Shown here piece by piece: positions 40,761 to 43,700 of a DNA stretch of 64,000 nucleotides. A model generated the notes under the pieces. The model did no database searches and was not told where the DNA came from. It worked only from the letters and a program-made list of their open reading frames with translations. Location of the stretch: the NCBI RefSeq assembly GCF_032854445.1, contig NC_088304.1:19815850-19879849 (forward strand). The letters are read 5' to 3'. Position numbers and translations under genes: made by a program. Position 1 is the stretch's first letter; each line of letters starts with the position of its first letter. Origin of the DNA: Liolophura sinensis. Lineage: Eukaryota > Mollusca > Polyplacophora > Chitonida > Chitonidae.

Positions 40761-43700
40761 TCAGTCCAGGTGTGTGAGAAGGTTGGTAATCTCACGGTCA
40801 CTCACATCATACCTCTGTGTTTTGCCCATAGCCTCAGACAACTTCACTGCTAACACATGCTTACACTGTGGAGGTGAAAAGCCAAAAATTACATTTCTGT
40901 CTCAAATATTTCAGAAAAATCAAGATACATATGTGCTGTTCATTAGATGGACTCATGACGCAAAAAAAAAATATTCCTGTTACAATTGTGTTTATTTATT
41001 TATTCATTTGATTGGTGTTTTATGCCATACTCAAGAATATTTCACTTACACGACGGTGGCCAGTATTATGGTGGGTGGAAACTGGGCAGAGCCCTGGGGG
41101 AAACCCACAACCATCCGCAGGTTGCTTGCAGACCTTCCCACATACGGCCAGAGAGGAAGCCAGCATGAGCTGGACTTGAACTCCCAGCCACCGCATAGGA
41201 AAGAGGCTCCTGGGTAATTACGCTGCTCTAGCGCTGACCAACTGAGCCACGCAGGCCCCCTGTTACAATTATATGTATATTGCCTAAAAAGAGCATGTCC
41301 CAAAAGGTAGGGGAATCACAGCTTACAATGGAAACTAGATTATGGTTGGAGGAAACCAGATTGCACCGGGGTAAATAATGCATCCACCATGGGCAAGTTG
41401 CTGGGAAAGTTTCCCGCATGTGACATACAAATATGCACATCATAATGGCAGAAGACTGATTGAACTGATCTTCAATGAATGAACGTTGCACTAGGCATAT
41501 TGACATGCAAAGTGGAGCCATTTCAGTTCCAGAACATGTTTGGACTCTCAAAGTGCAGGCTAATGAACCTGTATTAAAACTCAAAAGAAACGTAAGTAAA
41601 CTGAACACAAATGTGATAGTTTACTGATAAAAATTTATCATAGAAAGCTCTCAGAAAACATCAATTTCGAGTTCCATTTTATAAAATTTCTTTCATTCAA
41701 AATTTGCTGAAGAGTCAATTTTCCAATTTTTCTCATTGTGAATGTTGTCACAATGAAGAAGTGGCAGGACTAAAAGCCTTCAACTTTTTTTTTTTCTAGA
41801 CATGGCCCTGAAAATATGAATATTTTAAATGTTCTTATATTTCCATGTATCAACATGCATTTCCAACTTACCATTATGTGATCATTTTTCTTCAGTACTG
41901 ACAAAGAACATGAAAGAGACAAAAACAAAGAAGTTACACAATAAATGGCTTGTCACTGTCCACAATAGTCTGTGTTAGTCTAATAACTGATCATAACAGA
42001 CTAAGCTAGTACTTGTACTGTTCAAAATTGCCCTACAAATACATACTGTAAATCTTCAACCTTTTCTACCTATAACTCACTTTTTTCAATGGAATTTGTG
42101 CATACAATTATTATCAAAATGATGCCAAAATGATTTGTTTGTGTCACAAATAAAGGTGCAAGCTTCATAAAACTGTGCAAATTATTTCTTTGCAACCCAC
42201 AATTCTTGTTCAGTGGTAACAGTACAAAAGTTGTAACTGGTTACTTTGATAGCACAGCTATCCTGTACACCGAGCCCGAATTAAACAGTGGGAGGCAATA
42301 CTAGAAGTTATGTCCCTTGACCAAGATACGCACCATCTAGATTTTATTCAGGGGAGGATATAAGGATACAGCCCACATAATTTGGTCCAGGCCACAAATG
42401 AGGCCTGTTTCCCATTACTTATCCGTTTCAACTCCGAAACTCATTTCTTCACTTTACGTTTTTCATCAGGTGCATTTGGATTCTCTCCCTTGTAAAAGTC
42501 TTTTAACAGCTGTACAGCCTCCTCAGCGAATACACCTCGGACACACTGTAATGGTGGCCCCTGGTCCGGGATAACATCCGTGTCGACGTGTAAAACTGAT
42601 CCGCAACCACCAAAACGCTCATTATTACAGCCGTACACCACCAAGGGGATGCCCAAGAGTCTCAGAGCTCCCGCGCACATGATGCACGGCTCAACCGTCA
42701 CATACAGAGTCAAACGTGCAAAGACGTCCTCTTTCTTTCGTCCATTTTTCTCACACCACTTCATCACGTGATCAGCTGCCACCATCTCCGCATGTCTCGT
42801 CGCGTTTTTAGTTTCGTTCACTTCATTCCTTCCTTTAGCAATAATCGCTTCTTCAAAAACAAAGATACATCCTACTGGTACCTCCCCAGCTTCTAGAGCC
42901 TCGTGAGCTAAGTCTAGTGCTTTTCTCATCCAGTGAGAATGCCCCTCTGGAGCCTCACCTACCTGAGAACTTGAAGGCTGGACAGGCACAGTAGATGGAG
43001 GAGGGCAGGCAGACATAGGGAGTCCCTGAACTTCCCACAACCTACAACAAGATATTCCTGAGGCACTTATGACTGTACGAGAGATTGCAGCTTTCTACTA
43101 ACTGCCAGATTTTCAATATTCTCAATGTGCACGAATTTGCTTACATTTAGCTTTGATATTTCAGTTATGCAATATGACAAAACATAAAGATATGCATTTC
43201 AAACTTTATGCTGGATACTTTATTGATGCATGTGTGGTTTCGTGTGGTGTTTTAAACGACCTTTGTTTAAGAATAGCACTGATTACTGAAATAAAATCTA
43301 TTCTGGCATTTGGCCCGACATTCTTGAAGTGATTATCCATCTTATAGTCAGAGTTGTAATTATGAAATCCTATTTTTGAGATAAACTTTCCACGTCTCTG
43401 ACATCATTAATATGCATAACAAATCAGCAGCCAAACCTGCATAAGCTGCCCAATTTACCTGGAACAAACAGCGTCCTGATGGAGAGACGAGACGTGTCAC
43501 ATGACTGTTGTCCACCAAGTCAAGGGCAGGTAATAACGGCGCTTGAAACACAAAGTTTAACCTGAAAGTGCAGATGTTAAATAATCGAAATTCAAATATG
43601 CATAGAAATTTTAAGTGTATAGAATACTACTGCCTGTGAAACAAAGTGTAACGTTCCAAATTCATGTTATTTTTTATTCTATTCTTATCAATAAATTAAG

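Follow-up and report, generated by a model that had tools for sequence, protein, structure and literature searches.

A single-exon ADAT2 gene nested in intron 5 of ZSWIM7 in the chiton Liolophura sinensis, with a possible start codon in a host coding exon

Where does a gene begin that lies in an intron of another gene on the same strand, if its reading frame is open back into the preceding host exon, and how can both products be made from one locus? This question is raised by ADAT2, which encodes the catalytic subunit of the tRNA adenosine-34 deaminase, and the DNA-repair gene ZSWIM7 in the chiton Liolophura sinensis, a marine mollusc of the Polyplacophora. We analyzed a window of 64,000 nt, which is the whole stretch of DNA considered here and carries both genes on the minus strand, and searched the assembly (609,464,459 bases, 632 contigs) for second copies. 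The published Liolophura assembly is given as 609.5 Mb in 632 scaffolds in the accessible part of its description (PMC11068029). A literature search returned no paper on ADAT2 together with ZSWIM7 and none on ADAT2 as an intronless gene. Papers found with ADAT2 and 'nested', judged by titles and the starts of abstracts, did not deal with gene nesting; in the accessible text of PMC8216470 the word refers to nested PCR, and the accessible part of the chiton genome paper PMC12005716 holds nothing on the ADAT2/ZSWIM7 locus.

Structure of the locus and origin of the nested gene

The host gene ZSWIM7 is intact and consists of seven coding exons between 47935 and 40761, which are separated by GT-AG introns (Table 1). 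The 134 amino acids encoded by the joined exons 2-7 match P0121, the 142-aa ZSWIM7-like protein listed by NCBI for Liolophura sinensis, with 100% identity along the whole query. The assignment to ZSWIM7/SWS1 is based on a Pfam SWIM zinc finger (26.5 bits at a cut-off of 19.6) and on a protein search, in which 27 sequences were hit at E≤0.001 and the majority of those with a name were called ZSWIM7-like. P0121 hit the assembly at 15 places with E≤10. Exons 2, 4, 5 and 7 account for four of them, all on contig C10; nine more on C10 fall in a tandem array downstream of exon 7, and the two remaining, weak hits are found elsewhere (C6, E 0.017, 30% identity; C10, E 4.4, 32%). A second ZSWIM7 was not evident among the best candidates, which were the ones scored in this search. 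The tandem array (39791-40832, minus strand) follows directly behind the true exon 7 and contains about 10 copies of a unit of ~102 bp that goes back to the last coding exon; many of the copies repeat CKHVLAEAMRKTQRYG..THLD-stop. Two copies of an interspersed repeat, 84-85% alike, are located at 41000-41149 and 44184-44326 in ZSWIM7 introns 6 and 3; read by eye, the repeat is a tRNA-like SINE with a ATAAATAAATA tail.

Table 1. Features of the ZSWIM7/ADAT2 locus, in window positions
Feature	Position	Strand	Remark
ZSWIM7 exon 1, coding part	47914..47935	-	MTENSNAG, the eight residues not covered by exons 2-7
ZSWIM7 exon 2	45908..45979	-	
ZSWIM7 exon 3, 22 nt	44375..44396	-	
ZSWIM7 exon 4	43459..43561	-	
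ATG-free stretch, probably the most suitable region for ADAT2 transcription to begin	43017..43145	-	ATG count
ZSWIM7 exon 5, 79 nt	42963..43041	-	26 residues and one base; flanks ...ttgttgtag / gtaggtgag
ADAT2 coding frame, 191 aa, single exon	42441..43016	-	ATG 43016 to TGA; catalytic HAE and PCxxC present
Possible dual-frame stretch, 54 nt	42963..43016	-	ZSWIM7 exon 5 in one frame, predicted ADAT2 N-terminus in the other
ZSWIM7 intron 5, host of ADAT2	41898..42962	-	donor CAG/GTAGGT (cut after CAG) overlaps ADAT2 codons Q-V-G
Stop ending ZSWIM7 if intron 5 is retained	42955..42957	-	...FKFSGR-stop
Second in-frame ATG of ADAT2	42927..42929	-	a start here loses the conserved W
Candidate poly(A) signal AATAAA	42343..42348	-	93 nt past the ADAT2 stop; a GT-rich stretch comes next
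ZSWIM7 exon 6, 26-nt microexon	41872..41897	-	VLKKNDHIM
ZSWIM7 exon 7 with stop	40761..40865	-	CKHVLAVKL...THLD-stop

ADAT2 is a single-exon gene that ZSWIM7 harbors in its intron 5, in the same orientation: apart from a possible start in exon 5, its one-exon coding sequence is contained within this intron, and exons 6 and 7 are located beyond it. The matches of both genes are far beyond chance. A first-pass annotation of this DNA had described this nesting, with two frames on one strand, and we could confirm both the arrangement and its coordinates exactly (ZSWIM7 exon 43041-42963, donor gt at 42962-42961, ADAT2 ATG at 43016 and a frame open through to 42441). Reading in the ADAT2 frame meets no stop codon between 43040 and the TGA at 42443-42441. 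In a PDB search, the best match was 3dh1 (ADAT2, E = 4.5e-68), compared with E = 1.7e-6 for the best ADAT3 chain; the protein is nearer to ADAT2 than to ADAT3 or TadA, its zinc site (HAE and PCxxC) is intact, and Pfam reports MafB19-deam and dCMP_cyt_deam_1. A relative, P0001 (256 aa, from a 902-base contig), is identical to the window at 151 of the 162 residues of the ADAT2 core (93%), and the other 119 listed matches (of 7,982) showed 56-70% identity over 78-97% of the query.

The search of the assembly with the ADAT2 protein gave one match at E≤0.001 from two first-look candidates. PF00383 hit nine places at E≤10, one of them being this ADAT2. Classes were read for seven of the nine: judged by their motifs, we take L003, L004, L005 and L008 to be dCMP-deaminase-like and L006 and L007 to be cytidine-deaminase-like; the remaining two are L009 and an unread place 10 kb from L003. 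When five ADAT2 proteins were compared with the fetched loci by tblastn, the seven non-ADAT2 loci reached no better than E 0.043. This is the only ADAT2 found in the assembly, where a strongly diverged second copy is excluded solely by the protein and PF00383 searches. Neither Rfam (gathering cut-offs) nor a tRNA scan gave matches in the window.

ADAT2 has introns in other animals. The chiton gene, which lies immediately behind ZSWIM7 exon 5, has the appearance of an old retrocopy, one that would have taken the place of its parent. Loss of introns in place, followed by relocation, is a possible alternative origin. The protein and PF00383 searches of the assembly gave no second match that could be an intron-bearing parent. 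An A-run as remnant of a poly(A) tail was not found past the ADAT2 stop, nor was a target-site duplication, looked for as an 8-14-mer common to 43060-42935 and 42440-41898. Because old events lose such marks, their absence lowers only the claim of a proven retrogene. Retrocopies are commonly dead, and none of the 120 listed matches (of 7,982) was named as a Liolophura ADAT2, in a protein set of which about a quarter carry names. That the locus is a dead retrocopy or an assembly artefact has nevertheless a negligible probability: the frame is intact with its catalytic residues, the core is highly conserved in P0001, and no other ADAT2 match was found in the assembly searches.

The start of ADAT2 and the overlap with exon 5

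Two in-frame ATGs are available for ADAT2. The first one, at 43016, results in a protein of 191 aa and is the sole contiguous in-frame ATG upstream of the second one, at 42929, which results in 162 aa. The tryptophan encoded directly before 42929 is present in 116 of the 120 listed homologues, two of the others beginning at the following methionine and two carrying other residues; W followed by M (42932-42927) occurs in all 35 aligned ADAT2s, i.e. the window and 34 hand-picked proteins of the 120 listed. The W aligns with position 25 of chain 7nz7_A, which we take to be the mouse ADAT2 chain. According to the accessible text on the mouse ADAT2 structure, the protein is ordered from residue 11 (PMC8216470). 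This, together with the conservation of W, indicates that ADAT2 should begin upstream of W. The molluscan proteins P0021, P0023 and P0046 start six residues ahead of it (MEEHDAW, MEDHTRW and MEEHTKW). The chiton ADAT2 has no methionine at this position, and its sequence continues into the ZSWIM7 donor. The context of ATG 43016 is poor (ctccctATGT, no purine at -3) and that of ATG 42929 is also weak (cactggATGA). Together with the third-position comparison given below, the conserved W and the lack of another contiguous in-frame ATG upstream of 42929 amount to moderate evidence in favor of ATG 43016.

If translation started at 42929 instead, past exon 5, the overlap would never be translated in the ADAT2 frame and the locus would be an ordinary nested gene. 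This start is the one least entangled with ZSWIM7 and is matched by two of the 120 listed homologues (P0010 and P0061), which are predicted to begin at the equivalent methionine. It would, however, sacrifice the W found in 116 of them as well as a stretch aligning with other molluscs (E/G-x-H-x-x-W), and it requires scanning past 43016 to a weak context, unless transcription begins between both ATGs. We therefore regard it as unlikely.

With a start at 43016, the first 18 residues of the predicted ADAT2 would be encoded by 43016-42963; they are kept in P0001. The open frame across exon 5 had to be rejected as evidence for dual coding: as long as the ZSWIM7 residues are fixed, they force the frame open after the ATG, which makes it uninformative. 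All of 200,000 random synonymous versions were open after the ATG position, and the ATG itself arose in 50% of them; a stop in the ADAT2 frame can arise at just two codon junctions, both at the extreme 5' end of exon 5. The valine codon that creates ATG 43016 was also discarded as a special change, with valine being present in 7 of 27 aligned ZSWIM7 homologues (P0121 included).

P0001 shares ATG 43016 and the following 20 residues with the window without any change. In front of the core, the linker shows a difference of exactly three codons. Position 2 of the ADAT2 codons is position 3 of the ZSWIM7 codons, so that the P0001 protein reveals third-position changes in ZSWIM7. Judged from this protein only, such changes are present at 3 of 8 sites before the ATG versus 0 of 17 after it (Fisher's exact test, one-sided p 0.024); for fourfold sites, the values from this one relative are 3 of 7 and 0 of 9 (p 0.063). 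Five of the 17 sites are serine codons that were scored as unchanged by parsimony, and p is about 0.05 without them (hand calculation). Finding zero changes in 17 sites has a probability of ~0.03-0.01 at an assumed dS of 0.3-0.4, and of 0.28 at a dS of 0.1. The conservation of exon 5 could result from splicing signals instead. A search with residues 1-45 for more relatives with the overlap gave P0001 alone (of two candidates).

The long N-terminus of P0001 was rejected as a real protein: residues 1-42 match repeats at 63245-63119 and residues 12-41 at 29064-28975, and P0001 runs unspliced across the exon 5 acceptor (its CCCR) into the repeat. This interspersed repeat of the window (63119-63245 and 28975-29064) and the region upstream of ADAT2 in P0001 have ~70% in common at the protein level, which suggests that P0001 comes from a chiton or close kin.

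The ADAT2 start could also be supplied by a spliced upstream 5' exon, either its own or one of ZSWIM7, joined at 42978, at 42963 or at 43042, which is the acceptor of exon 5. Joining at one of the first two sites leaves little or no coding overlap, and AG/GT at 42963/42962 would then be a dual-specificity splice site, a type for which published cases appear in the accessible literature. Acceptor-like AGs in exon 5 end at 42978, 42970 and 42963 with upstream pyrimidine fractions of 0.75, 0.70 and 0.70, comparable with 0.60-0.85 at the six true ZSWIM7 acceptors. The weak context of ATG 43016 fits this model as well, and the conserved third positions of exon 5 could mark a splice tract. Furthermore, shared 5' exons are a known solution, as described in the accessible text for ADAT3/SCAMP4 and other human pairs (PMC2568002), and UTP14C uses the exon 3/4 junction of ALG11 (PMC5750009, as far as accessible). 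Yet no candidate start exon is recognizable, the contiguous frame and its ATG are kept in both the window and P0001, and a constraint starting at ATG 43016 is not what a spliced 5' exon predicts. A spliced start is thus a tentative alternative, to be taken more seriously than a start at 42929. For the contiguous start at 43016, it is plausible that the overlap is translated as part of ADAT2, and on balance the 54 nt are somewhat more likely than not to be dual coding.

Expression of host and guest

Our preferred reading, to which we give a little more than even weight, is that ADAT2 has its own mRNA, starts at ATG 43016 and has 54 nt coding in two frames. Transcription would begin in intron 4 or exon 5, within ~130 nt upstream of ATG 43016, and translation would begin within ZSWIM7 exon 5. 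Between the exon 4 donor and 43146 (43458-43146) 11 ATGs are present, compared with zero in 43145-43017, and a transcription start in the latter stretch would therefore give ADAT2 a clean leader. The mRNA would end at the intronic poly(A) signal at 42348, the sole AATAAA or ATTAAA within 42440-41898; with an AATAAA frequency of 1.2 per kb on the minus strand, such a signal is expected in 93 nt by chance in ~10% of cases (hand calculation). ZSWIM7 would come from separate RNA molecules that lose ADAT2 when they are spliced at donor 42962, and the ADAT2 RNA would have to escape this donor.

As the first-pass annotation had proposed, splicing at 42962 takes ADAT2 out of that RNA molecule, which follows directly from the coordinates. 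Since cleavage after 42348 in turn loses exons 6 and 7, one RNA cannot encode both proteins. The idea of mutually exclusive outputs consequently holds per RNA molecule, but a regulated switch that couples recombination to tRNA editing is unsupported. In a retained-intron RNA, described in the annotation with the ADAT2 ATG behind a truncated ZSWIM7, the ZSWIM7 frame ends at 42957-42955, downstream of ATG 43016. ADAT2 would probably be poorly translated from such an mRNA, because the ZSWIM7 frame opens first (47935) and passes ATG 43016.

These considerations bear on a model in which a single ZSWIM7 pre-mRNA is either spliced, giving ZSWIM7, or retained and cleaved at 42348, giving ADAT2. Ribosomes would reach the ADAT2 frame through leaky scanning, or they would reinitiate at 42929 past the ZSWIM7 stop at 42957-42955. 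Donor and intronic poly(A) signal are indeed present on one RNA, and the stop-to-start gap of 25 nt permits reinitiation. On the other hand, the ZSWIM7 frame from 47935 overlaps ATG 43016, so that ADAT2 would be read poorly, and reinitiation yields an ADAT2 lacking W. ADAT2 is essential in organisms where it was tested, which makes an inefficient sole route unlikely. We consider this model improbable, even more so than a start at 42929; placing an ADAT2-specific transcription start in intron 4 or exon 5 gives a simpler explanation that does without any coupling.

A bolder interpretation, which we regard as doubtful, is that ADAT2 captured its start codon by overprinting a ZSWIM7 exon and that donor 42962 acts as an obligatory host-or-guest switch. 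U1 bound at a donor such as 42962 could suppress an intronic poly(A) site. U1 binding and splicing would then lead to the recombination factor, whereas an unspliced RNA with intronic polyadenylation would lead to the only tRNA wobble deaminase of the lineage. If such a switch exists, the locus would offer a simple natural system in which a 5' splice site competes with an intronic poly(A) site.

ADAT2 and exons 4 and 5 lie between two inverted repeat arms (42045-42206 and 43766-43974), which match in three pieces with 79-90% complementarity and could pair in the pre-mRNA; elsewhere in the window, there is just a 32-nt match at 5183-5214.

Comparison with known systems and other features of the window

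The locus probably belongs to the kind of nested, host-dependent genes represented by UTP14C/ALG11 and ADAT3/SCAMP4, with a coding-on-coding overlap as the predicted added feature. Human ADAT3, which is an intronless frame, encodes the partner subunit of ADAT2 and forms a same-strand pair with SCAMP4 like ADAT2 with ZSWIM7. The parallel to this pair, drawn in the first-pass annotation, holds as far as the sharing of most-5' exons is concerned (PMC2568002, Table 1). In contrast to the chiton locus, most-5' exons and promoter are shared in ADAT3/SCAMP4 with little coding similarity, and the accessible part of that paper describes no coding-frame overlap for the pair (PMC2568002). In primates, UTP14C in ALG11 is likewise a retrogene-type guest on the host strand, and its transcription starts inside ALG11 coding exon 3, sharing the exon 3/4 splice junction, according to the accessible text (PMC5750009). 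It differs in that its coding sequence overlaps the host 3' UTR and its 5' exon is non-coding (PMC5750009, same part), whereas ADAT2 is located in an internal intron of ZSWIM7, with a possible overlap of coding with coding sequence and no intron-bearing parent found.

The predicted use of one exon in two frames of one strand resembles INK4a/ARF and GNAS XLas/ALEX. In these cases, however, the two frames are part of a single locus and their products have both been reported, while the second frame in the chiton is a prediction. GNAS XLas/ALEX is named in the abstract of PMC2329644. For the five metazoan genomes surveyed in PMC2330155, selection is described as acting strongly against same-strand and coding overlaps, as far as the text is accessible. 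The chiton locus contains the gene of a conserved housekeeping enzyme, whose only copy found in the assembly is an intronless guest, with its start probably in a host coding exon. If our preferred reading is true, the locus would illustrate how the coding sequence of a host can rescue a relocated gene without its ancestral start.

On the plus strand, an open frame at 48504-48923 resembles the first exon of beta-ureidopropionase (UPB1; PDB 6ftq residues 26-62, E 1.8e-4) and has no Pfam family. It points away from ZSWIM7 exon 1, and a common promoter is possible. A second open frame on this strand (21980-24811) encodes 943 aa that look coiled-coil-like, with no Pfam family above the cut-off. Furthermore, satellite arrays are present at 26218-28069, 52622-53168 and 54338-56005, with units of 78, 25 and 49 bp, respectively; the 78- and 25-bp arrays contain long stretches that are open on both strands.
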